Shown in pieces: positions 3,253 through 60,820 of a DNA stretch of 64,000 bases. Source of the DNA: Entophlyctis helioformis (taxonomy: Eukaryota > Chytridiomycota > Chytridiomycetes > Chytridiales > Chytriomycetaceae); assembly GCA_025526915.1 (NCBI GenBank), contig JAHLKH010000126.1, forward strand, positions 1 to 64,000. Direction: 5' to 3'. How positions within the stretch are numbered: the first letter of the stretch is position 1; every line of letters begins with the position of its first letter. Under the pieces are notes generated by a model. The model worked only from the letters and a program-made list of their open reading frames with translations. It ran no database searches and had not been told where the DNA came from. The position numbers and the translations under genes were made by a program.

Positions 3253-4611
3253 ATGAGCCAAGTGATGCCAGCGAGCGGCAATGCAAGCAACAAGCGACTG
3301 GGCAGCAGCAGCAGCAGCGACACTATGGACAGCCAGACTCTGCACGACACGGTGGCTGCTGTGAACGACGCTCTTGTGGCTGCTGGCCGCACAGACCTCG
3401 TGCCTCGCCTCGCTGCTCTTGTGCGTCTCCTGCCACTGCACCTGCACCAACAGCCGCCTGTCGAGCAGCCGCTGCAACTGCCTCAGCCGTGCCCTGTGGA
3501 TGCCGCTGTCACTGCCAGCCCGCCAGGCAGCCGCTACACCGAGGCTGCCCGGCTGCAGGCTGGCCGTGCCGTCAAGGCAACCGACTGGTGGACGCTGTAT
3601 CCGCACGAGCTGCAAGCCAAGATCCTGGTGCACGCCGGCCCGCTCACTCAGCTGCTGTGCGGCCATCTCGATGTCGCCAAGATGGACGACACTGCCAAGC
3701 GAGCGCTGTGGGTCGATGCCTTCAAGCAGGACTGGCAGGGAGATCTGAGCCTGCTCCCGGACGCCGATCTGAATCTCAAGGACTTTGCGCACGTCAGCAG
3801 CCGCAGCATGTATCATCGGCTGTGGGCACGCTTTCCCTATGACGACTTGTATGACAACTCCTCTGACGACAAACGCAATGGGCTGTGCACGATCCCGATG
3901 CGGCACATGTGGCTCGACAGCCTTCCGCTCTTGCCACACGAACTCCTCGCCAACGTTGCCGTCAAAGGCGATCACGCGTTCCTCGAGTTCATGCTGGACA
4001 ACAACCTCATCCCACTGGAGCTTGCTGGCTCAGTATGCCGTATTGACTATGCTGCATGCTCTGGATCTCTCGGTGTCATCAAGATGCTGTTGGCCAGAGG
4101 CGCGAGTGCGACATCAGAGGCCATGGACAATGGAGCGGAGTTTGGCCATTTGGACACGGTCAAGTGGCTGCATGCCAACCGGACGGAGGGTTGCACCGTA
4201 CAAGCCATGGACAATGCTGTAGCGAATGGACATCTGCATGTCGTGCAATGGCTGCATGAGCACCGCACAGAGGGATGCACGACTTAGGCGATGAACTGGG
4301 CAGCACAGAACGGCCATCTCAATCTTGTCAAGTGGCTGCATGAGCAGCGGGCGGAAGGATGCACGACTTTGGCGATAGATCTAGCTGCCGAGAATGGTCA
4401 TTTGGAGATTGTGCAGTGGCTGCACGAGCACCGCACAGAGGGATTTACGTTCCTGGCCATTACTGATGCTGCAAATGACGACATTGCACGGCTTCTCGCC
4501 CAATCGCTGACAGCGCAACAGCGCACTGCTTTGGTTCGTGATGCTGTTAGAGAAGGCGTGCTGAACTTTGAGCGTCGTCTTGCCAGTCTGTTGAACGAGT
4601 CTGATGAATGA
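3253..4611 (+). pseudogene. F-box-like/ankyrin paralogue 1, one nonsense codon
   Basis: Member of the local ankyrin family. Start ATG at 3253 (MSQVMPASGNASNKRLG). Order: Ser/Leu-rich N-terminus, conserved domain (YPHELQAKILVHAGPLTQLL, LWVDAFKQDWQGDLSLLP, SSRSMYHRL, IPMRHMWLDSL), then 27-residue ankyrin-like units (GHLHVVQWLHEHRTEGCTT) and a helical tail ending LNESDE. A TAG at 4285-4287 interrupts the frame exactly where paralogues read CAG (CTTQAMN). The same frame then continues intact for 108 codons to 4611. So it is either a very young nonsense allele, a readthrough product, or a sequence error; the upstream part alone would still encode the N-terminal domain and the first repeats. The divergent neighbour is the AlkB relic. 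Target and function are unknown; F-box-like is inferred from the LP-E-IL pattern. Confidence 0.75.
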
Positions 4612-5071
4612 ACGGTTTGACTTGTGTTTGATCACCGATGTCCATACTTGGGAGGCTGTCTGTACGATCGTCAGTGTGGAGCAAGCGAGAAACGCGACCA
4701 GCAACACGATCCTTGCCACAGCCATCATCCACGTCATGCATGTCAAGCGATGCATTCAGCACATTCATCCCACAACCAGCCGTTGCTGTGACAACAGATC
4801 TTTGAAAACCATCTCTGGCAGACTCTGCATATCGAGGGCCGAAGAGACAGGGTTATCAATGCGACATTCACTCGAATTCAAACCCCCTGTCTCGACATTC
4901 GCCTTCTCTTTTGGTCGTTTCTGTTTTGCTTGTCTCGTGTCCGTCTGCCAGCCACCATGCTCTCTCCTCATGAGCAGCTCGCATGCAATGCCCTGACAGT
5001 CTGTCCCTCTCAAGGCTTCATCTGTCCTGCGACTGCCTGGCGACGCCTTGCATTTGAACAAGATCACTTTA
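4612..5071. other. Intergenic spacer between convergent ankyrin genes
   Basis: Convergent spacer between the 3' ends of ankyrin paralogues 1 and 2. I see no domain-bearing frame, no tRNA and no transposon end in it. Confidence 0.5.
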
Positions 5072-6934
5072 TTAGGCAGTAGCTGTCGCTCTCTTCTTGG
5101 AAACAACATGCTTAAGACGTTCAGCAAGAATGGGATATCCACCTTTACGTCTGGCCTTTCGAAGCAACTCCATTGCACGCGCAAGAGACAGGCTGTCCAA
5201 CAAAAACTCGATAATGGCGTCATCCTTGGCTCCACGGAGTGTCTTGAACGTCAAGGGGCAACCGACGCGGCCAGGAAGCGCACCACATCCATATGCCCAT
5301 AAAAGGCTGCCTCCTTGATGGCGTTTGGAGAGCATCCTTCAGTGCGGTTGGCATGCAGAAACTGCACGATTTCCAGATGGCCATATGCTGCTGCGCTATC
5401 CATCGCACCTTTTGTGCATCCTTCGGTGCGGTTGGCATGCAGAAACTGCACGATTTCTAGATGCCCTTCACCAGCTGCCAAATCCATCGCATCTGTCGTG
5501 CATCCTTCGGTGCGGTTGGCATGCAGGAACTGCACAATGTCGAGGTAGCCGTGCATGGCTGCGCTATCCATCGCCAATGCCGTGCATCCTTCGGTGCGGT
5601 TGGCATGCAGGAACCGCACAATGTCGAGGTGGCCGTTCAAGGCTGCACGATCCATCGCCTTTGGCGTGCATCCTTCCGTCCGGTTGGCATGAAGCCACTG
5701 GATGATATGCAGAAAGCCTTGACCTGCCGCAAAAAACATGGCATTTTCCGAGCACGACGTGTTGCCTGAATCGTGCAGCATCTGCAGAATGTCGAGGTGG
5801 CCAAACCAAGCAGCTGTATCCATCGCCATGGATCCATCATAACTCTTGAACTTCTGAGATCACGCCGTGGTGCGCAACAAGATGCTTGAGGAGTCCCGCG
5901 AAACCAAACCTGATCGCCTTCCAGCCAAGAGCGATCGGGTGCGAGAAGTCGATGAGATCGAACCAGCAGTTGCGCATGGGGATGTGGTAGAGACGAGGCA
6001 ATATGAAGAGATCGGACTCGCCAGGCATGTCGGTCTCGTAGTGATTGCGAAGAGCAGCATTGTCGTCGTCGTCGTCGTCGTCGTCTTCGTCGTCGTCTTC
6101 GTCTTCGTCTTCGTCTTCGTCGTCTTCGTAGTCGTCGTAGTCATCGTCGTCTTCGTCGTCTTCGTCGTCGTCTGCGCTGGCTTGGCATGGAAAGCGAATG
6201 CACAGACGGTCGTACATGGACCGAGAGACAGACAGTGACCGCATGCTGACAGAAGGGCTACTCTCGTCGTCATCAACCTCGCCAGGATAGAGATTGACAT
6301 CGGGCAGCAGATCGAGGTCGCCTTGCCAGTCTTGGGCGATGACATCGGTCCACAGCGCCTCGACGGTCGCATCGTCCAGGCTGATGTTGTCGCCGAGCAG
6401 GTCGTTGACGAAGAGCGTGAGCGGGCCGGCTGCCTTGAGAATCATGAGCTGGATCTCGTATGGGAGCGTGTCCCATCGGCTCGCGTCTGGATCGATGCCG
6501 ACGAGAACGAGCAGGCGGCGACGGACAGTGGCCGGCATCCAGTCCCACCAGCTCTGGCCAGGCAGCAGCTCACGAGGTGGAGGAGGAGCGACGACGACGG
6601 CCGCAGATGGCTGAGGAGGAGCAGCGAGTGGTGTTGGGACTGTCGAGACAGCCAGCGAGTCGTACAGAGCAGCGAGGGCAGCAGCGACGGTCTGGTATGC
6701 GGCAATGGCAGAGTGGACAGCGGCGGCTGCATCAGACACGGCGCTGGCTGTCGGTGACGCAGCAGCAGTCGCAGTCTTGACGGCCGAGTCGGCAGCGGCA
6801 GCGGCAGCCTGTGCAGCGAGTGCAGCCTGCGTGACGGCAGCAGCAGCCGAGGCGAGCAGACTTGCGGCTGTTGGTGGTGGTGGTGGTGCCGTGGCAGCAG
6901 GCGGCTGCTTGATGTTGCGTCGCTTGCTGGGCAT
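5072..6934 (-). pseudogene. F-box-like/ankyrin paralogue 2, two frameshifts
   Basis: Start ATG at 6934 (MPSKRRNIKQPPAA). Layout: basic start, long Ala/Pro-rich stretch, conserved domain (LPYEIQLMILKAAGPLTLFV, LWTDVIAQDWQGDLDLLP, SRSMYDRLCIRFP), an Asp/Glu-rich tract encoded by a GTC/TTC repeat, IPMRNCWFDLIDFSHPIAL, then a run of units such as GHLEIVQFLHANRTEGCT and a helical tail ending KKRATATA. The frame is lost twice by one base: near 5840-5870 (frame ends VQEL, repeats resume at SMAMDTAAWFGHLD) and near 5250-5290 (ends FLAASVAP, tail resumes LTFKTLRGAKDD). Alignment with the paralogue at 59.4-60.8 kb supports a single ancestral gene. Either a pseudogene or two 1-bp assembly errors. Confidence 0.72.
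6061..6172. repeat. GTC/TTC trinucleotide repeat coding for Asp/Glu
   Basis: Imperfect (GTC)n/(TTC)n tract that reads as an acidic Asp/Glu run in ankyrin paralogue 2 on the minus strand. The other family members have no comparable acidic tract at this point, so it is a copy-specific expansion. Confidence 0.85.
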
Positions 6935-14688: not shown

Positions 14689-17130
14689 ATGCGTCTGTGG
14701 CGTCGACGAAAGACGGGCCTCTCGAAGCGCCTGCTCAAGCAGCGTGCTGCCGCGCTTGCTGCCACAAAGGCCGGCCTGGCGATGCAAAAGGCGTTTCCCG
14801 TGCCACTGCCCGCCGTGCTCGAGCTCGCGCTGGCCGGCCGCATCGCCGCACACCGCGCTGCCCTTGACCAGCCTGGTGGTCCCTCATCGCAGCAGCAGCA
14901 CGACAACACGCACACGCACACGCCTACGCCAGTTGCCCTCACGCTGCCCTTTGAGCTCGTGCGCGCCATTGCACACGCTCCGGTGCTCTCGCAGCGTGAC
15001 CGTCTGTCGCTGTCGCTCGTCTGCTTAGCCTGGCACGTGCCCGCCACAGAGGCGCTCTTTGACGGCGTGGGTGCCCGCCACTGCAGCCCTGACGTCTTCT
15101 GCCGCATTCTCCTGCGGCTGCGCAACCGCTGGATCGCTAGATCTGGCATGTTCACTGTACCGCATCCGTCCACGCTGGCCTGCATTGGCCGTGACTCGGA
15201 CGACGCTCACTACGTGGGCTCGCACGTGGAGTTGAGCAAGACGGCCACCAGGGCGTCGGCGGCCGGCTCTGGCTCCACGAGCGCCATGTCGTACACGTCG
15301 CTGCTCGCTCGTCTGCCATCGCGTCTCGCCTCGCTGGTCATCAGAAAGAACAAGCCGCTGCCGACCACAGCGTCCACTGCCAAGCCACCTTTGGCCGGCC
15401 AGCCCGCGAATCCGTTCGACTACACCTACCACGTCAGTCCGCGCATGCTCGCCTGCCCTGCAGTCTACCCGCTCAAGGTCAAGATCGCGTCGCTAAGCCA
15501 TCCACACTACGGCTCCGGCGTCAACCTGCACTTTTCTGCCGCCTCGCTGTCCTACTCGAACCTGTACCAAGTCACCAATGCCTTTTGCTCGGGGCCCGTC
15601 ATTCTCGACTTGGGCTTTGTGTTCAAGGCGTTTGGCGGCCAGGTGCGCGCGATCCACCACTCGAGCACGCGCATGGCCGAGCTCGAGATGATTGCTGAAA
15701 AGTGTCCGCGGCTGACGACCATCGATGCCGTCATCTGCGAGTCGTTCAACACCGGCACGAATCTCCAGCTGCTGTTTGGTGGCGATGGTGGCGGCGGTAA
15801 TGCTGGTGGCGATGGTGCCGTCGATCAGCAGACGACCAGCGATGCCGACGGTAGTGACGACAGCGACAGCAGCAGCATTGCCAGCATTGCGAGTATCGCC
15901 GTTGGCAATCTACCCGACAGCGAGATGGCTGACGACGAGGCGACGCCAAAGACAGCCGCTGCGTTACCTTTGCCTGGCGCTGATCAAGAAGAGTTGCAGG
16001 CTGGCCCTTCAACAGCCGTTCAAGACCCTACACCGGCACTGGCACTGGCAACGGCACATGTCGCCGAGACCAAGCCTACCGAATCCGCCCGGTCCACGCG
16101 ACCGAATGCCATCGTGTTCAGAAACGTCCAGTCGATCTGCCTGCGCATGCCGTACGGGCTCAGCGCCATGGGCCTCCCCACCGACATGCTTTCACCGCGT
16201 CTGCGGTCGCTCAAGCTCGACCGTATCTGCGGGACACCCGCACAGATGCGCACGCTTCTCGCTTCGGCAGGCACGAATCTACTGACGCTGCGCATTGACG
16301 AGTTCTCGGTCAAGGACCATGCCTGGTTCTCCCATCTGGGATCCCTTTGCCCGAACATTGAGGATATCAGTCTGACGGCCACGCCGCTGCCCGTGTTTGG
16401 TGCGGACGCGGAGACGGGGTGGGTGCCGCCGCACCTGCAGACCGCCAAGCGCGACCGGCACACTACGTTGCCGCTGATGTTGGCGAGCTGCGGCCGGCTG
16501 CGGAGGCTGTCGCTCACGCGCTTCGAGGACCCGCTGTTTCTGGACTTGATGGCGGGCGGGTGCCCGCGGCTGCGCTCGCTCACGCTGGAACGTGTGGTGG
16601 TGCCGGCGGCGCGGCTGCTGAAGCTGCTCGACACGATCCCGCTGACGGCGGTCAAGTGCGTGGACATGCCGGCCATTGACGCCGTGTTCCTGGCATGCAT
16701 GAGCGATACGCGGTCCGGCACGACGCTCACGACACTGACGCTCACCGTGCACGACGATCTGAGTCTGGGCGATGTGGTGCACCACGTAACCAACGGCCTC
16801 AAGAACGCGACGCTCGTCACCGTGTCGACGCACCATTGCAGCAGCTACGACGAGCTCGTTCGGCGCGACCGGCTCTTTTGGGCTAAATGGGAGTCGGACC
16901 GCCGTGCCGAATCGCTCTCGTCGATGCTCTCACGCTCGACCACGTCCGCACAGCCGCGGCCCGCACCAGCAACGCTGTCGACGCTGTTGCGCACACTGTT
17001 CTCTCGCCGACGCCGACGTCCACGCATGAGCGATTTGTACATGCTGGACGACCCCGTGCCGCCCGGCATCAAACGCGTTCTGTGGACGGGCCACGGCGTG
17101 CTCGATATCACCACATCGAGCGCTTCGTAA
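14689..17130 (+). CDS. F-box protein, large, single exon
   Basis: 813-residue open frame without introns. After a basic start (MRLWRRRKTGLSKRLLKQ) an F-box covers about residues 85-125 (LPFELVRAIAH..., SLVCLAWHVPATEALF), the SKP1-binding module of SCF ubiquitin ligases. The remainder is a long C-terminal region with irregular leucine-rich strands (for example LRSLKLDRICG, LLTLRIDEFSV, RLRRLSLTRF, LRSLTLERVVV), as in F-box/LRR substrate receptors, interrupted by an acidic Asp/Ser-rich insertion at about residues 360-430. The 5' leader has an AAC-rich stretch just before the ATG. The second F-box protein at 20256 has the same plan in opposite orientation. Substrate unknown. Confidence 0.78.
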   Translation: MRLWRRRKTGLSKRLLKQRAAALAATKAGLAMQKAFPVPLPAVLELALAGRIAAHRAALDQPGGPSSQQQHDNTHTHTPTPVALTLPFELVRAIAHAPVLSQRDRLSLSLVCLAWHVPATEALFDGVGARHCSPDVFCRILLRLRNRWIARSGMFTVPHPSTLACIGRDSDDAHYVGSHVELSKTATRASAAGSGSTSAMSYTSLLARLPSRLASLVIRKNKPLPTTASTAKPPLAGQPANPFDYTYHVSPRMLACPAVYPLKVKIASLSHPHYGSGVNLHFSAASLSYSNLYQVTNAFCSGPVILDLGFVFKAFGGQVRAIHHSSTRMAELEMIAEKCPRLTTIDAVICESFNTGTNLQLLFGGDGGGGNAGGDGAVDQQTTSDADGSDDSDSSSIASIASIAVGNLPDSEMADDEATPKTAAALPLPGADQEELQAGPSTAVQDPTPALALATAHVAETKPTESARSTRPNAIVFRNVQSICLRMPYGLSAMGLPTDMLSPRLRSLKLDRICGTPAQMRTLLASAGTNLLTLRIDEFSVKDHAWFSHLGSLCPNIEDISLTATPLPVFGADAETGWVPPHLQTAKRDRHTTLPLMLASCGRLRRLSLTRFEDPLFLDLMAGGCPRLRSLTLERVVVPAARLLKLLDTIPLTAVKCVDMPAIDAVFLACMSDTRSGTTLTTLTLTVHDDLSLGDVVHHVTNGLKNATLVTVSTHHCSSYDELVRRDRLFWAKWESDRRAESLSSMLSRSTTSAQPRPAPATLSTLLRTLFSRRRRRPRMSDLYMLDDPVPPGIKRVLWTGHGVLDITTSSAS

Positions 17131-20255: not shown

Positions 20256-22331
20256 TCATTTCAGAAACGTCACTGTTCCATTCCATACCAATCGCACATG
20301 GCGGCCTGTGCTGGGCATGGCGCTCGTCGGGCCGCCATGCCCAGCACAGGAGGCATCACCGACCCTGCTCTTGGCAAGATGCTTGCCCAACAGACCCGAC
20401 AGCCGCGGACAAAGCCGCGAGCTGATGCCGGCAACCCACTGCTTGACGCGGCTCGTGGCGCGTCTGAGCCTGCTGGGCCGGCTGCCGACAGCGTCCACGT
20501 CAACCCGTGCCGTCTGCAGTCTGACCAAGGCATCGCTGCTCAAAAACTGCCGCGCGGTCGTCGCGTCCATGCCGCTGCAGTGCGACAGCCGGATGTACGA
20601 GAGCGACGACAGCGACTGTGGAAGGGACAGCAGGTGCAAGAGGCCGGCTGTTGTGGACGCTGACGTGCGCGACAGACTCACAGACGTCAGGCGGCACGAT
20701 GTGAAGAGAAAGATGAGATCACCGCCTGGGACTGCCGTGTCGTGCAGTGCGAGAGATACCAGCGACGGACAGAAGCAGCCCAGAGATCGCAGGGCGGCGG
20801 TCGAGTCGCATCGAGAGACGCTGGTGCTGGCGTTGTGCGGCGGTGATGGAACCCACACGTCCATGCCGGTGGCCGTTTGGGCCGCAGAAAGAGCCGACGG
20901 TGGGCTCGGTGTTGGAGTTGGTGTTGGGATGGGCTTGACGACAGACATGCTCGATATGGAGATGGACGACAAGTAGAACAGCGGATACACCAGAGCAGCA
21001 AACGATGCATCTGTCATGGTGACCGACGACAGCGTCAAGGTTGTGACGGTTGGTGGCAAGATCGCGCAAGGCGACGTGAGCACAAGCGACGAGATGGCGA
21101 CTGTGTGCAGGGCAGGGCACAGCCGAGGCAGCATTTTCAGACTGTGCAGCTGCAGCTCGTCTGCCAGTCTCAAGACCAGAGACTTCAATCGCGACTCGGT
21201 GCACCCCAGCATGGCCAGCCACTGCTGATCCGACACGCGCACGCCATCCAGCACCAGACGCGACAGCATCGGTGCCAGAATGGTGGGCGACCGCGACCGG
21301 TCGCTCGAGGTCAGAGCCAAACGGCGCAGGTTTGGGAACGTCCACGTGACCGTGTGTGCATGTGCAGCGCCGAATCCGAACACGTCAATGTCGATCGACT
21401 GGCTGTCTGGATCATCCAGCAGAGCGTCCATGGCTTGCGCAACGCCAGGCAGGCTCGGCAGATCGCGGATGCTGTGGGGCAGGTCGCCGGTGAGATCGCT
21501 GACATGGGACCATCTCGCCTGCGACACTGTGGCTTGGAGCGACGCCAGATGCGGGCACTGGACCAGCAGATCCAGGATAGATGGCGTCAGGCATCCCAGC
21601 GTGACGTGCTTGAGCGTGCTCGTGTACATGGACTGTGTGGTGACAGCCGGTGCGATCTTGGAGTCGCGGGCACCTGGTGCAGGCGGCCCGTGGCGAGATG
21701 GGCCGGCTGAGGCGTTGAGGAGCGAGGCGAGCACCGTGTGGTGGACGTCGTCTGGATGGAGCTCAATGGCCGTGATCGGAAAGCGGCAGTGGCCGGCGAC
21801 GCCGCAATGGAGACTGCGGCCGATGCCGAGCTGCCGCACGAGCTGCGGAAAGAGCGACTGGCGGAGCCGCCGGTCGGAGCCCTGGATGGACGGCGACGTC
21901 GCAAGGCGCACGGCCGACACGAGCGCGCCGGGAAACACGGAGCGGACCTGCGATGGCGGGCACTGGGCGTGCAGCGCCAGCTGCAGGGCGTGGCGCTCCT
22001 TGAGGAAGACGAACAGCTGGAGCACGATGCCGTGCAGGGACCGCGCGCGCTGGCGGCCGCGGCCAGCGACCGATGCGTCGTGCGCGCACTCGGACGACGC
22101 CCACGCAGGCAGCTGCGATGGCGGCGACGATGGCGGCGATGACGGCGACGACGACGATGGCGACGGTGCAGCCTCGCGCAGAGCTGAGAACAGCACGGAC
22201 GTGGCGTGCGGGTGCCAGGCGGAGCACACGAGCGAGCACGCCACGAGGTCTTGCGGCGACAGGCGCGGGTCGTCGATGACCTGCAGGCACAGCTCCAGCG
22301 GCAGCCTGCGACCGCGGCCCGTGTGCGCCAT
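20256..22331 (-). CDS. F-box protein, large, single exon
   Basis: Start chosen at the ATG at 22331 (MAHTGRGRR) because the F-box begins at once (LPLELCLQVIDD, LVACSLVCSAWHPHATSVLF, residues about 10-50); the frame is open further upstream to 22493 but without domain content. About 691 residues. The C-terminal part has leucine-rich strands typical of F-box/LRR receptors (LRRLALTSSDR, LKSLVLRLADEL, LVSLALHDTAV, LTSVSLSRTSAS). The last about 35 codons include a perfect 18-bp inverted repeat (20305-20350), so the natural C-terminus may have been altered. It is a distant paralogue in plan of the gene at 14689, pointing the other way, with G-alpha between them. Confidence 0.72.
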   Translation of the reverse strand: MAHTGRGRRLPLELCLQVIDDPRLSPQDLVACSLVCSAWHPHATSVLFSALREAAPSPSSSSPSSPPSSPPSQLPAWASSECAHDASVAGRGRQRARSLHGIVLQLFVFLKERHALQLALHAQCPPSQVRSVFPGALVSAVRLATSPSIQGSDRRLRQSLFPQLVRQLGIGRSLHCGVAGHCRFPITAIELHPDDVHHTVLASLLNASAGPSRHGPPAPGARDSKIAPAVTTQSMYTSTLKHVTLGCLTPSILDLLVQCPHLASLQATVSQARWSHVSDLTGDLPHSIRDLPSLPGVAQAMDALLDDPDSQSIDIDVFGFGAAHAHTVTWTFPNLRRLALTSSDRSRSPTILAPMLSRLVLDGVRVSDQQWLAMLGCTESRLKSLVLRLADELQLHSLKMLPRLCPALHTVAISSLVLTSPCAILPPTVTTLTLSSVTMTDASFAALVYPLFYLSSISISSMSVVKPIPTPTPTPSPPSALSAAQTATGMDVWVPSPPHNASTSVSRCDSTAALRSLGCFCPSLVSLALHDTAVPGGDLIFLFTSCRLTSVSLSRTSASTTAGLLHLLSLPQSLSSLSYIRLSHCSGMDATTARQFLSSDALVRLQTARVDVDAVGSRPSRLRRATSRVKQWVAGISSRLCPRLSGLLGKHLAKSRVGDASCAGHGGPTSAMPSTGRHVRLVWNGTVTFLK
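20305..20350. repeat. Perfect 18-bp inverted repeat (hairpin)
   Basis: Arms CCTGTGCTGGGCATGGCG (20305-20322) and its exact reverse complement (20333-20350) enclose a 10-nt loop. It lies inside the last part of the F-box reading frame. A perfect GC-rich arm of this length is unlikely by chance in coding DNA. Confidence 0.95.
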
Positions 22332-22606
22332 TCGGGCGTGAATTCGTGCTTGTCGGAGTTGCGGCAATCGCACAAGCTCAGGCGTCCAAGCCTTGCGCGG
22401 CGTCTGGCGAGCCGTTTCGGATAATCTGATCACAAGAGCGAGACCGGGCGAGGGCGGCGTGTTGCGCATGTGCACGAGTGGAACGTGCAGCACGGGCAGT
22501 ACGAGTGGAATGGCTCAGGCTGATGCTGATGCTGAATGCTTTGCTGGTTTGCACTTGAGCAGTGTGCAATGTACATATTGTCACTGGGCGAAAAATGAAA
22601 CAAGAA

Positions 22607-29723: not shown

Positions 29724-31124
29724 ATGCCCAACAGCCAGCTCAAGCGCCGTCGCTCAGTGTCGCCCGCCGTCGCTCATGGTGTGGGGTCCCGAGCTGTTGC
29801 TGCTGTTTCTGATGCTGCTGCTCGTGCTGCTCATCGTTCTGGGCTGCCAAGACACCTGGAGCTGGCCCGACTGCAGACTCTGCGTGCGGTCAAGGCAGCA
29901 AGCCTGTGGGATCTCATCCCCGCCGAGCTGCAGAACAAGATCGTCGACCACGCAGGGCCACTCACGCAGCTTCTCCACAGACGTCTGCGGCTGCCACTGT
30001 CTGGCAGTCTGGCGGATGCCGCCAAGGCACGCAGTCTGTGGGTCGATGCGTTCAAGATGGACTGGCGCGGGGATCTGCAGCTGCTGCCCTCGGACGTGCT
30101 GCTCAGCAGGACGGATGCCAGCCACATCACCAGCCGCAGCATGCACGCTCGCTCGCTTGACCGGCTTGCCCAGTCCGATATCGGCAATCGCAACCGTGCA
30201 GTCTTGGTCCACGTCCCGCTGCGCCGTCTGTGGCTGGATGCCTTGCCTGCTGCCACATCGCCACTCGATCTCGGGCTGATGGCTGTCATGGGCGGACACC
30301 TGGCGTTCCTCCATCACCTTCTCGACACCAGCCAAGTGACGGTTGACGAGCTCAGCACACACGAGCGGTGCACAGCGGTGCACAACCACCAGGTCTGCAA
30401 CCTGGCTGCCGAATGCGGGCATCTGGACATGGTCGAGTATCTCATGGAGCGGATGCCGAGCGGCGTGCGTCGGACACCGCATACCATGGACTGCGCTTGC
30501 TCGAGCGGCAACCTGGATCTCGTCATCTGGCTGCACGAGACAGGTGCCGAGTGCACCGTGGCTGCAATGGACGATGCCGCCGACCGAGGACACTTGCACA
30601 TTGTCCAGTGGCTGCACGCCAGCCGTACGGAGGGATGCACGACATCTGCAATGGATGGTGCGGCACACTGCGGCCACTTGAATGTCGTGCAGTGGCTGCA
30701 CGATCATCGGACAGAGGGATGCACGACACATGCGATGGACTGGTCAGCACAGAACGGCCATCTCGACACGGTCCTCTGGCTGCATGACCATCGCAGTGAA
30801 GGATGCACGACCCAGGCGATGAACTGGGCAGCAAGCAACGGGCATTTGCATGTCGTGCAGTGGCTGCATGCGCACCGAACCGAGGGATGCACGACCGATG
30901 CCATTGACTTTGCAGCTGCCGGTGGGCATACCAAGGTTTTGGTGTGGCTGCATGAGAACCGTGCAGAGGGATACACGGTCGATGCCGTGCAGGATGCTCC
31001 CACAGACGACCTGGCGCGCATCCTTGTTGGCTGGCTGACACCGCGGCAACGACGGGACTTTGTGAGCGACGCCGTCTGCATGGATCTGGGCGATGCGGTC
31101 CGACGTTTACAGCCAGTGGAATAG
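29724..31124 (+). CDS. F-box-like/ankyrin paralogue 3, intact
   Basis: Start at 29724 (MPNSQLKRRRSVSP), 466 residues, uninterrupted. The conserved domain has LIPAELQNKIVDHAGPLTQL, LWVDAFKMDWRGDLQLLPSD, TSRSMHARSL and VPLRRLWLDAL. It is followed by about eight 27-residue units (for example GHLHIVQWLHASRTEGCTTS, GHLDTVLWLHDHRSEGCTTQ) and a helical tail (DLARILVGWLTPRQRRDFVS). The units keep ankyrin helices (GHLxxVxWLH) but the usual hairpin of a 33-residue ankyrin repeat is replaced by a short RTEGCTT loop. This is the cleanest template for the family. The domain may bind SKP1 like an F-box and the repeats a target; both points are inference. Downstream at 31166-31190 is a GGGAT pentamer run. 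Confidence 0.78.
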   Translation: MPNSQLKRRRSVSPAVAHGVGSRAVAAVSDAAARAAHRSGLPRHLELARLQTLRAVKAASLWDLIPAELQNKIVDHAGPLTQLLHRRLRLPLSGSLADAAKARSLWVDAFKMDWRGDLQLLPSDVLLSRTDASHITSRSMHARSLDRLAQSDIGNRNRAVLVHVPLRRLWLDALPAATSPLDLGLMAVMGGHLAFLHHLLDTSQVTVDELSTHERCTAVHNHQVCNLAAECGHLDMVEYLMERMPSGVRRTPHTMDCACSSGNLDLVIWLHETGAECTVAAMDDAADRGHLHIVQWLHASRTEGCTTSAMDGAAHCGHLNVVQWLHDHRTEGCTTHAMDWSAQNGHLDTVLWLHDHRSEGCTTQAMNWAASNGHLHVVQWLHAHRTEGCTTDAIDFAAAGGHTKVLVWLHENRAEGYTVDAVQDAPTDDLARILVGWLTPRQRRDFVSDAVCMDLGDAVRRLQPVE

Positions 31125-38464: not shown

Positions 38465-38517
38465 TAACGCAATCACTGACATGACAATCACGTCTTCATT
38501 CCAACTGCTGGTCGCGG

Positions 38518-40287
38518 CTATCCATCGGCAGGCTGCCAAGCATCAAAATAGTCACTTGCGCAGCTTTGCAGTTTCTGGATCGTCACTTGCAGTTGCTTGA
38601 TGGTGACAGCTTTCGCATTTTCTTGCTTTGCTTGAGCAAGCAGTGCCTGTGCCTGGTCGAGTGTGAGGCTGCCCAACAGCAAATTGACAACTTGGTTATT
38701 TTCATCAAAGTCAAGAGAGTCGAGCACAACTGAGTATCCGCAATCCAGCAAGTACTGCAGCATCTCGGCGCTGCCCGAAAAGGCTGCCATCTGAACGACA
38801 TTGTTTGATGCACGAATGCCGTTCGAGTGCATGTACTTGACAACATCCAAGTGTCCCCAGCGCGCTGCGCTTTCCATCGCATCGGCCGTGCAGTCTTCGC
38901 CGCGTGTCTCGTGAAGCCACTTGACGACATGCAGATGGCCGTAGGCAGCCGCGTCGCTCATCGCATACTCCGAACACCCTTTCGTTCGATTCTTGTGGAG
39001 CCACTTGACGACGTGCAAGTGACCTTTGCCTGCCGCGCCGTCCATGGCTTCGGTCGTGCATCCTTCGGTTCTGTTGGCATGCAGCCACTTGACAACATGC
39101 AGTTGCCCACCACGAGCCGCCCAGTCCATGGCAAACTCCGTGCATCCTTCCGTCCTATTGGCATGCAGCCATTTGACGACATGCAGGTGGCCGTTGCCAG
39201 CTGCCCGGTTCATCGCATCTGTCGTGCATCCCGTCACACCGAGATCAAACAGGTACTGCACAACATCGAGATGTCCATGGCTTGCCGCATGATCAACTGC
39301 ACGGTGCCAGTACGTGCTTGTCGGATCTTGATTGGCCATCCATTCTTGGAGTGTGCTGTACTTGTCGTCGAGATGCTTGAGCAGATCGAGGCATCCACAG
39401 CAGATGGCTAGGCGAGCGAGTGCGATTGGGTACGTAAAGTCGAGCAGATCGAACCAGCCGTGCCGCATGGGAATGAGAATCAAGCGGCTGCCGTTCCAGT
39501 GAGTGAAGAGGGGCGATCCGTCATAGTTGTTGTTGCGTGCGTCGTGTCCTGCACAATAGGGCTCGGTGTAACGAGGAAAGCGCTTGCAGAGACGGTCGTA
39601 CATGGGGCGAGAGTGTGCGAGAAGCAGTCCGTTGTCGGCCGTCAGCTCAATGTTAGGCAGCAGAGCCAGATTGCCTTGCCAGTCCATCTTGAACGCATCG
39701 GTCCACAGCTCAAGCGTCGACCTGTAGCCGATGTGGCGCTTGTCGCTGAGCAGTCCGTTGACGAAGAGCGTGAGCGGGCCAGCTGCCTTGAGGATCAAGG
39801 CGTGGATCTCGGCGGGCTTGCCGTCCCAGTGGCTGCGTCCAAACGCAAGGTCGTCGGTGGCTGGCGGCACGACATAGCGAGGCACAACTGGCTGTGGTGT
39901 CGCTGCTGCTGCTGTTGCTGTCTTGAGTCGCTTGGCTGGCGGCTGCTCTTGCGGCTGTCCTGGCTGTCCTGACTCGACGGCTTGGCTGCCACTCGCTCCA
40001 ACGACCTGCTCGACCACAGCCCGAACAATGTCGGTGCGGCCAAGGGCAACCAGCTGCTCGACTGTGCTCTGCAGCTGGCTCTGCAGACGGCGCACATGCT
40101 CGTCGCTGGCCGCTGCTGCTACTGCTACGTCTGCGTTGCCTGTCGTCTGTCGCTCCGTCTGCATCGACAGCCGCTTGCTCGCTTTGTTGTTGTCCGGGCA
40201 AGATCCACTCGACGCGATCGTCCAACAAGTGCCATTGCAACGAACGAGAGTGTGGGACAACCACCGACACGGCATGCCATGTTGCAC
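38518..40287 (-). CDS. F-box-like/ankyrin paralogue 4, intact
   Basis: Uninterrupted frame, up to 589 residues. The first ATG is at 40287; the ATG at 40164 (MQTERQTTGN) is an alternative, but the stretch NNKASKRL before it resembles NASNKRL near the start of paralogue 1, favouring the longer form. Domain: KPAEIHALILKAAGPLTLFV, LWTDAFKMDWQGNLALLPNI, SRPMYDRLCKRFP, IPMRHGWFDLLDFTYPIAL. Seven or more units follow, such as [20 protein letters not shown], then a tail (VVNLLLGSLTLDQAQALLAQ). Its stop lies only about 50 bp from the LINE cluster's 3' end, and it is in tandem with paralogue 5 (184 bp between them). No defects seen. Confidence 0.78.
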   Translation of the reverse strand: MQHGMPCRWLSHTLVRCNGTCWTIASSGSCPDNNKASKRLSMQTERQTTGNADVAVAAAASDEHVRRLQSQLQSTVEQLVALGRTDIVRAVVEQVVGASGSQAVESGQPGQPQEQPPAKRLKTATAAAATPQPVVPRYVVPPATDDLAFGRSHWDGKPAEIHALILKAAGPLTLFVNGLLSDKRHIGYRSTLELWTDAFKMDWQGNLALLPNIELTADNGLLLAHSRPMYDRLCKRFPRYTEPYCAGHDARNNNYDGSPLFTHWNGSRLILIPMRHGWFDLLDFTYPIALARLAICCGCLDLLKHLDDKYSTLQEWMANQDPTSTYWHRAVDHAASHGHLDVVQYLFDLGVTGCTTDAMNRAAGNGHLHVVKWLHANRTEGCTEFAMDWAARGGQLHVVKWLHANRTEGCTTEAMDGAAGKGHLHVVKWLHKNRTKGCSEYAMSDAAAYGHLHVVKWLHETRGEDCTADAMESAARWGHLDVVKYMHSNGIRASNNVVQMAAFSGSAEMLQYLLDCGYSVVLDSLDFDENNQVVNLLLGSLTLDQAQALLAQAKQENAKAVTIKQLQVTIQKLQSCASDYFDAWQPADG

Positions 40288-40470: not shown

Positions 40471-42744
40471 TCATTGCCCTGACCACCAATGCACTCTGCC
40501 GAGATCGGGGATCTTTGCGGCTGACTCGTCAAGGGGCGGCGCAGACAGGTCGGCGATGGATGCATAGGCGTCCGTCATTGCCTCCACACACCTCATCTGG
40601 ATCTTGGCCCGCTGAGTGACAGGCAGACACATCAATGTGTGGTGAAACGAGTAGTTCAAGCGCGCAAGGTCGCGCACCGTGAACTGGTCGAGGCAGTTCT
40701 TGAGAAGGAACCGCATGGACTTGCCACGTCTCGCCTTGAATGCATTGTCGATTGCCTCGTGCGAGCAACCCTCTTTGCGATGCACAAGCAGCCACTCGGC
40801 GACCGCCAAACAACGAGTGTCATACAGACGACCCAGCGCATAATCCATCGCGTCGGTTGTGCATCCATACCCGTGCTCGTGCAACCACTTGACTCGAGGC
40901 AGATCGCCAAGACGCGCAGCACGGTCCATCGCCAGTGTCGTGCATCCCTCGCTCCGATTGTTGTGGAGCCACTCCAGCATCTCCAGCCCGTCTTTGCTGT
41001 CTTGCGGAAGAAATGGGTCCAGTGCAAGCCGATCCCACTTTTTGTAGCCAAGCTTGTCCCATCCCCTGCTTGTGCATCCCTCTTGCCGATTGGCATGGAG
41101 CCACTTGGCCATGTCGTAATGCCCATACTGCAAAGCCCAGTCCATCGCCCATGGCGTGCACCCATATCCATGCTCGTGCAGCCACTGTACCACTGCCATT
41201 CGTCCACAACCAGCAGCGCGATCCATTGCTTCATCAGTACCGCGGCGTCTCCTGTCGTGCAGCCAGATGACAACGTCCAGGAATCCGCCCTCTGCCGCCC
41301 ATGCCATCGCCCACTTGGTGCAGTCCGCCCGGATATTGTCCCATAGCCACTCCAGCATGTCCAGCCGCCCGCCCATGGCCGCCCAGTTCATCGCATCGTC
41401 CGAATATGCATCACTGCCCGCCTCGTGCAGCAGCTTGAGAATATCGAAATGGCCGCAGTACACCGCATAGTCCATCACAAACACATTGCGATCATGGTCG
41501 CTGTACTGATCGTCAATATAGCCGTGAATGAGCTGCAGACGCTGCACATCGACCGACTTGCGCTCGAAGATGAGATGCCTGAGGAGATCCGTGTAGCCGT
41601 ACTCGATGGCTGCGCGTGCCATGTTGATGGAGAGGTCAAAGTCCAGCAGATCGAGCCAGCAGTGTCGCATTGGGATGTGGATCAAGTAATGATTTTCTAT
41701 CGTATGCTTGAAAGGCGTCTCCTCTTGCTGCTCGTCTTGCTCCTGCTCGTTGTTTTCGACTGACATTGTATCATCCTCGGGATTGATCTGGGGTTCCTCG
41801 ACGCCCTGCTGCTGCTGCTGCTGTTGATCGCCGAGACCGACGACTGCCACGTTGAGTGCGGGCTGGTTTCCATCGCCAGCGGCTGCATCGCCGTTGACAT
41901 CTGCCTCGTCGCCGTACACGTTCGCCAGGCGGTCTCGATCCTTGTTTGAAGAGGACTGATAGCGATCAGATGCCACTGAGCAGAGCCGCTGGTACATGGA
42001 CCGAGTCTGCACGTAGTCCATGCAGTTTTCGCGGAAGAAGAGAGGATGTTGTTGATGTGGGCGAGGAGTGCGGCAACGAGGTATGCAGTCTTCGGAGTAT
42101 TCAGGCAGCCGCGCCAGATCGCCCTGCCACTCGAGCTTGAATGCGTCGCACCACACAAGAGTGTGAAAGAATCCATTGGCGGATTTCCTCTCGGCAAGTG
42201 TTGGATAGTCGCCGCACAGGAACTGAGTGAGCGGGCCAGCGAATCGCAAGATGTGCAGCTGCAGCTCCCTGGGCAGCCTGTCCCAGCGACTGGACAGCGG
42301 CTGGCTGACTTGCTCAGCAGCCAACGTCGGTGTGTCGACTGTTTGTCGGGATGGCTTCTGTGGCTCGTCAAAGTCACTGGCGAACGGGCCGCGCATCTCG
42401 ACAACCTCCTCGACGTATGACATGGTGCCGAGCAATGAGATGCCGCTGTCGCCGAGGATGAGCAAGGGTCCTTCGACACCAAACAGCGCAAACGACTCTC
42501 TGCCAGGGAGCGGATTCAGCGTCTCATAGTACCACGCCAGTGCGTTTATCATCTGGCATGCTCGCTCCGGCTTGTGCTGCTGCAACACGGCTGCAACCAG
42601 CCTGGCAGTCCATGACGGTGCCGCTGTCAGCAGTTTCGCGACTGCCGCTGCCTGACGCTCGCTTGCTTGATGCTCGCCCGCTTGGCGCTCGCCTTCTTGC
42701 ATTTCGTGGCAAACTGAACGCGTTGCGTGCTGTTTTGAATCCAT
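40471..42744 (-). CDS. F-box-like/ankyrin paralogue 5, longest, intact
   Basis: Start chosen at 42744 (MDSKQHATRSVCHEM), 757 residues; the frame is open upstream to 43146, but that part looks non-coding (hydrophobic, Trp/Cys-rich, no match to paralogues). Domain: LPRELQLHILRFAGPLTQFL, LVWCDAFKLEWQGDLARLP, QTRSMYQRLC and IPMRHCWLDLLDFDLSINMA, with a Gln/Asp/Glu-rich insertion between them. Units are more diverged than in the other copies (GRMAVVQWLHEHGYGCTPWA, LEMLEWLHNNRSEGCTT), suggesting an older lineage under constraint. A helical C-terminal region follows. Confidence 0.75.
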   Translation of the reverse strand: MDSKQHATRSVCHEMQEGERQAGEHQASERQAAAVAKLLTAAPSWTARLVAAVLQQHKPERACQMINALAWYYETLNPLPGRESFALFGVEGPLLILGDSGISLLGTMSYVEEVVEMRGPFASDFDEPQKPSRQTVDTPTLAAEQVSQPLSSRWDRLPRELQLHILRFAGPLTQFLCGDYPTLAERKSANGFFHTLVWCDAFKLEWQGDLARLPEYSEDCIPRCRTPRPHQQHPLFFRENCMDYVQTRSMYQRLCSVASDRYQSSSNKDRDRLANVYGDEADVNGDAAAGDGNQPALNVAVVGLGDQQQQQQQGVEEPQINPEDDTMSVENNEQEQDEQQEETPFKHTIENHYLIHIPMRHCWLDLLDFDLSINMARAAIEYGYTDLLRHLIFERKSVDVQRLQLIHGYIDDQYSDHDRNVFVMDYAVYCGHFDILKLLHEAGSDAYSDDAMNWAAMGGRLDMLEWLWDNIRADCTKWAMAWAAEGGFLDVVIWLHDRRRRGTDEAMDRAAGCGRMAVVQWLHEHGYGCTPWAMDWALQYGHYDMAKWLHANRQEGCTSRGWDKLGYKKWDRLALDPFLPQDSKDGLEMLEWLHNNRSEGCTTLAMDRAARLGDLPRVKWLHEHGYGCTTDAMDYALGRLYDTRCLAVAEWLLVHRKEGCSHEAIDNAFKARRGKSMRFLLKNCLDQFTVRDLARLNYSFHHTLMCLPVTQRAKIQMRCVEAMTDAYASIADLSAPPLDESAAKIPDLGRVHWWSGQ

Positions 42745-49696: not shown

Positions 49697-52290
49697 ATGA
49701 ATCCGTACGAGCGCGGACGTGGACGAGGTGTGGGGCTGGGGCGAGGCAGCCGCGGTGCTGGGCCACGCGGACGCGGCGGGCCCGGGCGAGGCGGCTTGGA
49801 CGCGGGGCCGTTTGGGCGTGGCAGCAGCAGGGGCCGGGGCAGCGGTAGCGGCAGCGGCAGAGGTGCCGACGCGGGCACAGGCTGGCGCGGCGGTGCGGCA
49901 CGCGGCGGCTACCAGACGCACCACACACACCAGACGCACCAGGGGCACGAGCCGCGAAGCATTCAATGCGGAGCAGATGCGGAACTTCGAGGGTGATGGG
50001 TTGGCTATGGTGGGTTTAGCGGACTTCCTGCAAGCGTCTATTTGGGTGTACCGGTCTGAGCTCTGGGCACACAAACGGCGCGCTGTAGGGTAAGGGTACC
50101 TGTGGGATTTGCCAACGAGCCTATGCCATCACTGGTGGGGCATGCTATGCGAGCATTTGGAATGAAGCTTTCTTATCCATCAAAAAAAAAAAAACCAGGG
50201 GCACGAGCCGTACGAGCCGTACGAGCCGCCGCTTGCCTCTGGCAGCAACCAGACGCAGGTCGGCGCCGCGGTGAGTCGCTGCTGTGCATGGCTAGTGTCC
50301 CACGCCCTGCCTGCATTGACTGGCTGATTGACTGGCTGATTGACTGGATGACACCCTGCGTGCATTCTCCTATCGATCGCTGGCGGCCATCCGCTGTGCA
50401 TCGCGGTGCGTCATTGTCTCACGCGTGTCTGCCCTCGCAACGCCACGCCTGCAGCACCCGCAGCCGTCCTTTGGCGGCCACCGCGACGTGGGCAGGCCGC
50501 GCTCGCCAGAGCCTGCGCTCAACTACCGCACGTCGCCGTCGCCGTCTCGTCCCTCGGCACGCCAGCCGCCGCACGACCCCCGCAGCTTCCCAGACCGGCC
50601 TCTGGACAAGCATGACGCCAGATCGTATGGCGACAGCAATGCAAAGCCGCCTGCCTGGCCGCGAGCGCATGCTCCCATGCCCCACATGCGCACGCCGCCG
50701 TCCAAGCCGCCAATGCGGCCACTCAGCCCGATGACCGTCCGCCCCATGCCCATGCTGGAGACGCAGACGCCTACGCCGGCCTCCACGCCGCCTGGGTCAT
50801 CCAGACGTGTTTCGTCTCGCGCGTCCGACGTGTCGTTCACCATTGACACGGACAAGCTGTTCAGCCAGCAGCAGACCAAGAGCCACCACGCCATCGTGGA
50901 CGAGCATCTGCAGCCCGTCCTTGCACGGCTCGTCGCGACGGGCCATCTCAAGACCGTTCGGATCTTGCTTGATGCCTTTCAGAGCATGCTCGACGGCCCG
51001 CCTGACACGTCCTTTGGCCAGCTGCCGCCTGCAGCCCTGCCGGCCCCTGCCGCCAAAGCGCCAAAGCTCTTTTCTGCAGACGCGCTCATCCGCCAGCACG
51101 CCGGCATAAGCCAGGCGTCTGAGCCGCAGCCTCCTAAAAAGGTCGCTCGCATCTCGCAGTCGCCGCCCTCGTCATTGACTGCATTCCGCTCAACAACGCA
51201 CAGTGCAGTCGGCCACGATTCGCTGGCTTCGAGCAACTGGGATCGCTTGTCGGCAGACATCCAGATGCGCATTCTCAAGTTTGCCGGCGTCCTGACGCTG
51301 TTCCTGCACGGCAAGGTGTCGGCCGCAAACTTTGACAGGGAGACCATGGTGCGCATTTGGCGCGATGCCTTTGCCATCGACTGGCAGGGACACTTTGATC
51401 GGCTGCCCGAAGTCCGCCTGCTGCCTGCCGATCTGGCCCTTGTCCACACGCAGGGCATGTACCACCGTCTTCGCGAGCGTGTCCAGCGCAACTTCAATCC
51501 AGACGCGCAGCTGCTAGCCGATCTCCAGACCGTGCCGCTCCGCAACGGCTGGCGCGATGTCATTGACCTGTTCCCGCCTCTCGACATGGCGGCCACGGCC
51601 TTTGTGCACGGGCTGCAGGACTCGTTTGTGTACGTGTTTGAAAAGCACCATCTGCGTCTGATGGATGTCGAGCGTGCTGTGCACCGCGCGCGTCCAGACA
51701 AGGCGGATCCAGGCATATGCATGATGGACGAAGCGGCGCAGCGCGGCATGCTGCAGGTTCTGCGCACACTGCACTACACGGGCGATGCGCTCTGCACGGC
51801 GCGCGCCATGGATCTGGCAGCCGCCCACGGCCACCACGAGGTGGTCAGCTTCCTCCACTTTAACCGCACCGAGGGATGCACCAAGGCGGCCATGGACAAG
51901 GCCAGCGAGAACGGCCACATGCAGATCGTCACGTTTCTGCAGTTCAACCGCCGCGAGGGATGCACGACGGCCGCCATGGACGGCGCCGCATCGGCCGGCC
52001 ACCTCGAGATTGTCAAGTACCTGCACAAGTTTGGCAAGGTCGGATGCACGACAGCTGCGATTGACAAGGCGGCTTCAAACGGACACGACAGCGTGGTCGC
52101 GTGGCTGCTCAAGAACCGCACCGAGGGATTCACAATCGCTGCGGTCGAGGACGGGCAGACGGGCGACATTGTGCGCTCCATTCTCACGAGCCTCGGCACG
52201 GCTGACCTGGAGCGGCTCAAGCGCCACGCTCGTGCGACCAAGATGGACCGAGCCGTCAGCCGCATCGAGCGTTTGCTGTCGTGCCCATGA
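49697..52290 (+). pseudogene. RGG/ankyrin paralogue 6, split by a retro-insertion
   Basis: Exon 1 starts at 49697 (MNPYERGRGRGVGLGRGSRG) and encodes about 80 residues rich in RG/RGG. If the 256-bp segment 49955-50210 (insertion plus one repeat copy) is ignored, it continues YEPYEPPLASGSNQTQVGAA to a donor at 50271 (GTGAGT), and exon 2 begins at 50455 (HPQPSFGGHRDVG) in the same phase. Exon 2 carries a Pro/Ser-rich linker, the conserved domain (LSADIQMRILKFAGVLTLFL, IWRDAFAIDWQGHFDRLPEV, TQGMYHRLRERV, VPLRNGWRDVIDLF), six units such as GHMQIVTFLQFNRREGCTTA and a helical tail. The insertion adds 256 bp, shifting frame and adding stops, so this allele cannot make the full protein; exon 2 itself is intact and could be used from an internal start. 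That RGG and ankyrin exons form one gene is inference from phase and position. Confidence 0.68.
49955..50194 (+). mobile_element. 240-bp poly(A) retro-insertion with 16-bp TSD
   Basis: The sequence CCAGGGGCACGAGCCG occurs at 49939-49954 and again at 50195-50210. Between the copies lie 240 bp ending in 13 A. Perfect direct repeats plus an A tail are the signature of LINE-type target-primed insertion. The insert has a 40-codon open stretch (LAMVGLADFLQASIWVYRSE) ending in TAG and then a tail TTGGAATGAAGCTTTC, similar to the 3' end TTGGAATGAACTTTGG of the 35-38 kb LINE. It is either a heavily 5'-truncated relative of that LINE or a truncated processed mRNA. Confidence 0.88.
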
Positions 52291-59256: not shown

Positions 59257-59371
59257 CTGCGTGGACTGATGGCGATCCCTTGCTGTGGATCAGCAGCCGT
59301 GTTGTCTGAGCAAGAACGACACGCAGCATCGCATCTGCATTCAAGAGTGGCACGCTTTATTGGCAGGCTGG

Positions 59372-60820
59372 TCACGCCTGCTTCTCTGCAACTGCGCGCT
59401 CGAGACGCTCAATCACTTCGGGACGTCCACCTTGCGCCGTGGCCTCCTCCAGCATCTCCGTTGCACGCGCAAGGGTCATGCTGTCCACCAAAACCTCAAC
59501 GATCGCTTCATCCTGCACATCATCAAGTGCATCAAAAGTGAACTCGTATCCGCATGTGAGCAGAACTGAACGATCTCGAGATGGCCGTCCTCTGCTGCAC
59601 CCTTGATGGCGTCTGTCGTGCATCCTTCAGTCCTGTTGGCATGCAGCCACTTGACGACATGCAAGTGCCCTTGAGAAGCCGCCCAATCCATCGCCTGCGT
59701 CGTGCATCCCTCCGTCCTGTTGGCATGCAGCCACTGCACAACGTCGAGATGGCCGTTCATGGCTGCACTACCCATCGCCCATGTCGTGCATCCCTCCGTC
59801 CGGTTCTCGAGGAGCCAGATAAAGACATCGAGATGGCCCCCCTCGGCCGCCCAATCCATCGCCGAAGTAGTGCATCCCTCCGTCCTGTTGGCATGCAGCC
59901 ACTTGACGACATGCAAGTGCCCTTGAGAAGCCGCCAAATCTATCGCCCTTGTCGTACATCCTTCAGTGCGGTTCTCGTGAAGCCACTTGACACATCGAGA
60001 CGGCCCTCCTCGGCCGCACCATCCATCGCCCATGTTGTACATCCTTGGGTCCGGTTGGCGTGGAGCCACTTGACCACATGCAGATGGCCATTACAAGCCG
60101 CCTGATCCATGGCACCATTCGAGCACGTCCTGCTGCCTGCATCGTGCAGCATCTGCAGAACATCGAGATGGCCGTTCAGTGCAGCAAGATCCATCGCCAA
60201 GCGTCTGTTTAAACGCTGGAACCTCTTGAGCACAACGTCATGATGCGCAACAAGGTGCTTGAGGAGACTGGCGTGGCCGTAGTAGATCGCCTGCCAACCG
60301 AGACCGATCGGATGCGAAAAGTCGACGAGATCGAACCAGCCGTTGCGCATGGGAATGTGTCGGAGGCGATTATCAACGAAGTGATCGAAGTCAGGATCGA
60401 AGTTGGTTGCATAGTGGTTGAGCTGTGGGTCGAAGTGTCACAAGCCGCTTGGTCTGGAAAGCGAGTGCACAAGCGGCTGTACATGGACCGAGAGACTGGC
60501 AGCGAGAGCATGTCGAGAGCAGGACGCTCGTGCAGGCTGAGCTTGTCAGCATAGAGGTTGATGTCTGGCAGCAGACCGAGGTCGCCTTGCCAGTCGATGC
60601 TGATGGCATCCGTCCACAGCGCTTCGACTGTCGCTTCGTTGAGGCTGTCCGTGTCGCCGAGCAGACCGTTGATGAAGAGCGTGAGGGGGCCAGCTGCCCT
60701 GAGTATCATGGCGTGCAGCTCGGCTGGCTTGCGGTCCCAGTGGCTGCGTCCGTACGGCAGAGACCCGCTGTCGTCCAGCTCAAGCGAAGCGACTGCATCA
60801 GCCAGGGTGTTCATTGCCAC
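59372..60820 (-). pseudogene. F-box-like/ankyrin paralogue 7, three frameshifts
   Basis: Start at 60820 (MAMNTLADAVASLELDD). Domain: KPAELHAMILRAAGPLTLFI, LWTDAISIDWQGDLGLLPDI, SRSMYSRLCTRFPDQ; after a frame change near 60435, [20 protein letters not shown] and first repeats; a second break near 59995 (GRLDV then [14 protein letters not shown]); five more units; a third near 59560 (EIVQF then LLTCGYEFTFDALDD), ending AVAEKQA. Each break is corrected by a single base; two are a lost base of a GG or CC pair. Closest in layout to paralogue 2, also minus strand. Pseudogene or assembly errors; the contrast with intact copies of similar composition argues for real decay. Confidence 0.72.

Follow-up and report, generated by a model that had tools for sequence, protein, structure and literature searches.

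A 64-kb stretch of the genome assembly of the aquatic chytrid Entophlyctis helioformis (Chytridiomycota; contig JAHLKH010000126.1, positions 1 to 64,000; the window) was found to contain exactly seven segments of one gene family (tblastn, E ≤ 1e-6), here called copies A to G, and a decayed eighth fragment of the same family (Table 1). Comparison by tblastn and alignment bore out what had been predicted from the DNA alone, namely that seven copies share an N-terminal domain of about 150 residues followed by repeat units. Four copies (C, D, E, and F) are open, one more than the three that the original prediction had counted as intact; copy F has no stop up to its C terminus, and its C-tail can be aligned to those of other copies. 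The single TAG foreseen in one copy lies in frame in copy A, where family sequence goes on past it. Two copies had been expected to carry 1-bp frameshifts; B and G are indeed frameshifted, but the frames of the tblastn matches indicate about two frame changes in B and about three in G. The retro-insertion claimed for one copy was not seen, none of the seven segments being interrupted by the reverse-transcriptase element of the window, the sole retroelement looked for. Copy E has a long low-complexity insertion inside its N-terminal domain and divergent units. The insertion in the N-terminal domain of copy B is an Asp/Glu codon microsatellite, and a Gln/Glu-rich insertion in copy E stands at a similar place.

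Table 1. Family copies and other features of the 64-kb window (positions in the window; aa, amino acids)
Feature	Position	Strand	tblastn segment	N-terminal domain	Repeat units	State and other parts
Decayed eighth fragment	113..265	-		113..265		contig start
Copy A	3253..4608	+	3301-4608	~3586-4002	4144-4479	in-frame TAG at 4285-4287; C-tail to 4608
Copy B	5081..6934	-	5081-6520	~6484-5852	seven unit starts, 5802-5215, in another frame	ATG 6934; Asp-rich insertion 6172-6061; C-tail similarity 5266-5081 in first frame
813-aa open reading frame	14689-17130	+
F-box-like gene (PF12937)	20256-22493	-
Copy C	29724..31124	+	29598-31121	29898-30335	30417-31007	open, 466 aa; family C-tail
Reverse-transcriptase element (RVT_1)	~34.9-38.4 kb					open reading frame at 34900-38450; 3' repeats end at 38415
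Copy D	38518..40164	-	38491-40281	39834-39340	39276-38773	open, 548 aa; family C-tail
Copy E	40471..42744	-	40591-42465	42294-41527	~41448-40741	open, 757 aa from ATG 42744
Copy F	50425..52290	+	51082-52281	51229-51681	to 52164	open, 621 aa from GTG 50425; first ATG 50677
Copy G	59375..60820	-	59375-60769	~60754-60449 and 60404-59991 (two frames)	60173-59503 (two frames)	C-tail similarity 59563-59375

A relaxed pattern of the repeat unit has 54 matches in the window, compared with 4 to 9 in five codon-block shuffles. The unit is 28 residues (84 bp) long, not 27 as first proposed: most unit starts are 84 bp apart, and the A-M-D anchor recurs at a spacing of 28 residues in 17 of 22 cases, 56 in 4, and 55 in 1. 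The unit is consequently 5 rather than 6 residues shorter than the 33-residue ankyrin repeat. With the curated Pfam models, Ank_2, Ank_4, and Ank_5 are above cut-off in all four open copies. In AlphaFold2 (AF2) models the unit forms two antiparallel helices in a solenoid, which supports the earlier description of ankyrin helices that lack the hairpin. Whereas canonical ankyrin and the designed ankyrin repeat proteins (DARPins) have 33 residues and a β-hairpin, these proteins have a 28-residue period and no strand in the models; judged by the predicted fold, the unit is a short variant of the ankyrin repeat. In the model of copy D (residues 95 to 548, 11-row alignment), helix pairs recur every 28 residues without strands, and blocks of model residues 191 to 390 have a predicted local distance difference test score (pLDDT) of 76 to 96; its N-terminal domain is mostly below 50 and was not used.

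The N-terminal domain has 22 invariant columns among five aligned copies and in alignment contains W-D-x-L-P-x-E-L-x-x-x-I-L-x-x-A-G-P-L-T. It matches no already named family in Pfam or NCBIfam. AF2 predicts it to be all-helical. The model of the open piece of copy A, from a 14-row alignment that includes chytrid and oomycete relatives, has a mean pLDDT of 83.8, with blocks of 89 to 96 for residues 21 to 90, and longer helices at 21-30, 33-38, 49-61, 87-96, 109-121, 132-142, and 144-152.

The E. helioformis assembly (29.57 Mb, 482 contigs) was searched with the N-terminal domains of copies D, C, F, and E, the best 148 to 150 of 439 to 723 candidates being scored per query. The 310 matches taken, with judged repeats left out, were merged within 700 bp into at least 300 family places on 154 contigs, broken and near-identical copies included. 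This figure is a lower bound, because copy B of the window was missed by these queries. Sixty fetched N-terminal domains fall into 52 clusters at 97% DNA identity, from which we extrapolate about 260 distinct loci. For comparison, PF12937 (F-box-like) has 69 six-frame matches in the genome. At roughly 1.5 kb per locus, 300 loci would make about 1.5% of the 29.6-Mb genome a single receptor-like family. The view that the set is expanding is thus well supported, both by the approximately 300 places in the same genome and by the protein-level constraint described below. Eight merged family places are on contig C83 and seven on C175, including series of 3 to 4 spaced about 2 kb apart, which suggests tandem duplication besides dispersal. 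On another contig (C108), an N-terminal domain ends at base 12.

At 60 of these loci (L009 to L068), the N-terminal domain is followed by units mostly 28 residues apart, 0 to 18 per locus with the pattern used; at 55 loci at least one unit is in the open frame of the N-terminal domain, and at 5 there is none. A common tail type ends many open copies. Of the 55 distinct loci that are not truncated at a locus end, 38 were read as open from the N-terminal domain to the family tail and 17 were not; an automatic count, which missed C-type tails, gave 35 of 58 loci as open. Among 30 D-type loci, collinear flank homology extends from about 450 bp upstream to 1,400 bp downstream of the start of the N-terminal domain and then fades, with 3% of pairs still sharing it at 600 bp upstream and at 1,700 bp downstream; the shared unit is therefore about the gene. 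No homology to defined element ends beyond the gene, as would mark transposable-element cargo, was found in this comparison, which included no search for terminal repeats or target-site duplications.

Constraint at the protein level is evident in both parts of the gene. The N-terminal domain has a median ω (ratio of nonsynonymous to synonymous rates) of 0.57, with 0 of 300 pairs above 1, in 25 distinct D-type sequences of equal length (five of 30 were dropped as identical or of other length). Of the best 150 D-type matches to this domain, 138 are stop-free, compared with 22% and 44% in neutral simulations at 0.1 and 0.05 substitutions per site, branch lengths that were assumed and may differ from the true ones. 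In the repeat units, ω was 0.10 for core positions and 0.15 for other unit positions with the first unit pattern, against 0.57 for the N-terminal domain, 0.48 for the tail and rest, and 0.87 for positions 19, 20, 24, and 27 (17 nonindependent pairs). Since that pattern itself restricts core residues, the contrast was repeated with an anchor at positions 16 to 18 only; ω was then 0.11 in the core and 0.93 at positions 19, 20, 24, and 27, with 0.10 in the remainder of the unit (17 pairs). A mostly nonfunctional amplification, in which copies spread by duplication, perhaps helped by a retroelement, and decay with little function, would fit the 3 broken copies of the 7 in the window, the 17 of 55 loci that are not open, and the relaxed ω of the N-terminal domain; blastn similarity to the retroelement of the window was also found at 14 of 58 loci, several of these being weak and one (L009) the window itself. 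We consider such an amplification quite unlikely, given a unit scaffold with ω near 0.1, the high share of stop-free N-terminal domains, and homology that ends near the gene with no larger mobile unit.

The variability of the units is concentrated on one face. Positions 20, 24, and 27 are hypervariable across the 208 units taken from 50 loci, with entropies of 3.6 to 3.8 bits; the first unit pattern restricts positions 1 to 3, 5, 6, 8, 9, 21, 22, and 25, so that low entropy there is partly imposed. With the anchor at positions 16 to 18, single-position ω is 0.80 at position 19, 1.07 at 20, 1.00 at 24, and 0.90 at 27; other high positions are 6 (1.08, few changes), 11 (0.63), and 7 (0.56). Residue 325 of copy D (unit position 1) is model residue 231, so that helix 249-257 of the model covers unit positions 19 to 27, and positions 20, 24, and 27, at spacings of 4 and 3, lie on one side of it. 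Diversifying selection on this inner-helix face is suggested by these values, and the pattern of constraint points to a conserved scaffold that carries a diversified binding surface. Three points weigh on the other side: the loci compared are also those from which the variable face was defined, the 17 pairs have sequences in common, and the pooled ω of the face is not above 1. If the suggestion is right, the family would be a natural case of the diversification of a variable face on a conserved ankyrin scaffold.

The tails that precede the N-terminal domain suggest that the proteins are intracellular. Of 48 N-terminal tails, 20 have a nuclear localization signal (NLS) pattern, K[KR]x[KR]; 200 shuffles gave a mean of 1.1 (maximum, 5), and outside the tails the same proteins had the pattern in 3 cases. 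The versions of this pattern differ among several subfamilies (PPAKRLK, PAKRRR, TKRRR, and LKRRR), the tail of copy D carrying PPAKRLK. The case is weakened by the inclusion of related and some near-identical copies in the counts (e.g., L042 to L044) and by start codons that are unproven. A role as delivered effectors that target a host or prey alga, which has been suggested for ankyrin families of plasmodiophorids, would be in keeping with the large copy number and surface diversity, which fit an arms race, and with the expansion of ankyrin families in the secretomes of gall-forming plasmodiophorids, according to the available part of that study (PMC12503489). We regard this as very improbable here: the tails are low complexity, many of them look like NLSs, and inspection by eye showed no evident leader (no signal peptide predictor was run, and the starts are unproven). 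In Pythium ultimum, where a largest family consists of 77 mostly ankyrin proteins, only 3 have predicted signal peptides in the accessible portion of the report (PMC2926784).

The start of the N-terminal domain had been likened to an F-box, and for its first helix this likeness holds up. Aligned with a profile of 18 F-boxes (HHalign), helix 1 (LPxELxxxIL) scores 21.8, which none of 200 column-shuffled profiles reaches (mean, 9.9; maximum, 21.0); the most divergent F-boxes, P0033 and P0021, are a little above the family in leave-one-out comparison, at 24.7 and 25.6. In the model of copy A, helix 21-30 corresponds to this predicted first helix. The spacing from LP to LW is 38 to 39 residues by our own count, which we take to be equal to that of the Skp2 F-box. 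In addition, P0011 combines the same type of 28-residue ankyrin unit with an F-box that Pfam scores at 21.4 bits (cut-off, 20.5); P0033 from Pandoravirus celtis and P0021 have such a fusion as well, with F-box scores below the Pfam cut-off.

Evidence for a whole F-box is absent, and several results tell against one. Helix 1 exceeds the best shuffle by a small margin, and column shuffling also destroys any helix pattern. The HHalign match spans 16 to 17 columns and ends after helix 1, with a probability of 1.4% (15 F-boxes) or 20% (18 F-boxes), compared with 80 to 98% for F-boxes in leave-one-out. No Pfam family was found for any of five N-terminal domains at E ≤ 10, there was no F-box match over 40 to 50 residues, none of the five had an NCBIfam F-box match, and by eye 0 of the 69 PF12937 matches in the genome are at a family place. 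An F-box hidden Markov model (HMM) built from the same genome gave its best family match in copy E (E = 0.0092) over 13 residues, and a PRANC match in copy B is nonsignificant (Pfam, E = 0.15). The domain has about ten predicted helices, far more than an F-box, and is about three times the size of one, and much of its conservation lies beyond helix 1 (AGPLT, LWxDAFxxDWxGDL, SRSMY, and IPMRxxW). On these grounds the same receptor-like repertoire could have an N-terminal domain that is not an F-box at all but an unrelated adaptor or a capping or dimerizing domain, in which LPxELxxxIL is a chance helix. This seems to us doubtful, though a serious possibility; the score of helix 1 above all 200 shuffles, the spacing presumably shared with Skp2, and the F-boxes at the same end of other proteins with 28-residue units argue in the other direction. 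Poxviral ANK proteins use a truncated, two-helix F-box that is reported to suffice for SKP1/CUL1 binding, and so a short version could work here as well, as far as the accessible text of the review goes (PMC9414399). We lean, tentatively, toward an F-box-like domain.

Fold searches with the copy A model bear on its ankyrin part, residues from about 130 on aligning with ankyrins. Foldseek gave no match in PDB at E ≤ 0.001, the best being DARPins (E = 6.3e-3), with residues 1 to 129 hardly probed. Among viral models there were 31 matches at E ≤ 0.001, the top ones being ankyrin proteins of Pandoravirus (E = 7.5e-5; template modeling [TM] score, 0.49). The 50 PDB fold matches listed include no F-box, and rank 49 in the viral library is an "F-box incomplete domain containing protein" of Pandoravirus quercus (E = 2.8e-3; TM score, 0.38); as the searches were filled by the ankyrin part, neither result speaks for or against an F-box. 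A comparison of the N-terminal domain profile with solved structures gave two sequence matches at E = 2, which were judged to be chance.

The 28-residue units find 1,529 database proteins at E ≤ 0.001, and the 120 of these that were listed include proteins of oomycetes, chytrids, dictyostelids, and Pandoravirus celtis. A spacing of 28 is the commonest among the units of the listed relatives (880 intervals), and proteins from Phytophthora, Globisporangium, Batrachochytrium, and Pandoravirus celtis have the same unit, GHLxVVxWLHxNRTEGCTxxAMDxAA, at the same length. Unlike the E. helioformis family, most listed relatives have no N-terminal domain: at E ≤ 1e-12, its HMM matches 6 of the 120, namely P0042 (B. 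dendrobatidis), P0002 and P0096 (B. salamandrivorans), P0102 (Polyrhizophydium), P0116 (the oomycete Thraustotheca clavata), and P0043, three further matches (E = 5e-4 to 2.4e-3) having been left out of the count. Matches in other chytrids and an oomycete make it probable that the domain predates the expansion. Because these relatives were retrieved by their units, the association of the domain with units outside E. helioformis is partly built in, which weakens it as evidence. The expansion to about 300 loci was seen in E. helioformis only, other eukaryote genomes lying outside the search. In P0116, an oomycete protein has both the N-terminal domain and the 28-residue units, as in chytrids; this could reflect horizontal transfer, shared ancestry, or contamination.

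Hardly any family member is present in the protein collection searched. A single database protein, P0001 (BC831DRAFT_551818, partial [Entophlyctis helioformis]), has the N-terminal domain of copy D; by eye, the end of an E-type gene is followed in it by a D-type gene, the order in which copies E and D are neighbors in the window. For the N-terminal domain of copy C, none of 4,763 candidates was at E ≤ 1. This is not evidence of absence, because it took the units and a local HMM to find the relatives in Batrachochytrium, Polyrhizophydium, and Thraustotheca. Public annotation would appear to be largely without the E. helioformis copies, perhaps as a result of repeat masking. Searches of viral and prokaryotic contigs for the N-terminal domain gave 14 and 45 pattern matches, of which 0 were confirmed.

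Taken with the alternatives weighed above, the most likely reading is that the genes encode intracellular receptors with a constant F-box-like adaptor. Each gene has three parts: a low-complexity, often NLS-bearing tail, a conserved, predicted helical domain of about 150 residues as the proposed adaptor, and a predicted solenoid of 28-residue, hairpin-less ankyrin-type units. We infer that the inner-helix face (positions 19, 20, 24, and 27), which differs from gene to gene on a conserved scaffold, binds different partner proteins and that the adaptor couples them to one shared machinery. This machinery would most likely be a SKP1-CUL1-F-box (SCF)-type ubiquitin ligase, contacted via a degenerate, truncated F-box made of helix 1 (LPxELxxxILxxAGPLT) and a short helix 2, and the bound proteins would be ubiquitinated. 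The products might thus work like the ANK/F-box adaptors of poxviruses, in which the parts come in the opposite order. That the family as a whole is a lineage-specific, massively amplified set of receptor-like proteins feeding an SCF-type ligase in this way is a tentative proposal, to which we give somewhat less than even credence. It is unlikely, in our estimate, that the approximately 300 loci further amount to an antibody-like repertoire of intracellular, partly nuclear receptors, whose F-box-like adaptors and DARPin-like arrays would direct the ubiquitination of proteins that are foreign or incompatible (viral, transposon, or non-self).

The poxviral ANK/F-box proteins carry a C-terminal F-box and ordinary ankyrin repeats. 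The E. helioformis domain is, by contrast, N-terminal, larger, unnamed, and fungal. The expanded F-box families of nematodes and plants have a canonical F-box with other substrate domains (LRR, MATH, and FBA); in the excerpts consulted, these lineage-expanded families are likewise very large, diversified, and receptor-like. Like the present family, poxviral (PRANC) proteins combine an ankyrin solenoid with a possible short F-box. SCF receptors of the ANK/F-box type are called extremely rare in eukaryotes in the available text of a review (PMC9414399); the present family is a testable candidate for such receptors. As far as the accessible parts of the respective studies go, ankyrin proteins are expanded in plasmodiophorids, where 17 have a SKP1/BTB/POZ domain (PMC12503489), and in Neocallimastigomycota (PMC8778642), and Rhizophydium megarrhizum has an ankyrin cluster of 116 genes over 11 genomes (PMC13391722). 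The same parts of these papers and of two others (PMC2926784 and PMC9414399) do not describe the N-terminal domain. Searches of open-access papers for expansions that combine ankyrin repeats and an F-box in chytrids, and for E. helioformis (the latter judged by title), gave no description of the family.

The reverse-transcriptase element lies between family copies, and about 100 bp separate the end of its 3' repeats from that of copy D. The open reading frame of the element has a tandem 430-bp repeat at the 3' end, and pieces of this 3' end, at 98 to 100% identity, also occur near family genes at three other loci (L012, L025, and L033), which might reflect a preferred insertion site. The 813-amino-acid open reading frame between copies B and C has no Pfam match at E ≤ 0.01 and, by eye, an F-box-looking start (LPFELVRAIA). 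The F-box-like gene among the family copies is above the cut-off for PF12937 (30.6 bits), and another PF12937 match is on contig C345, which also holds a 98% copy of the copy C region.

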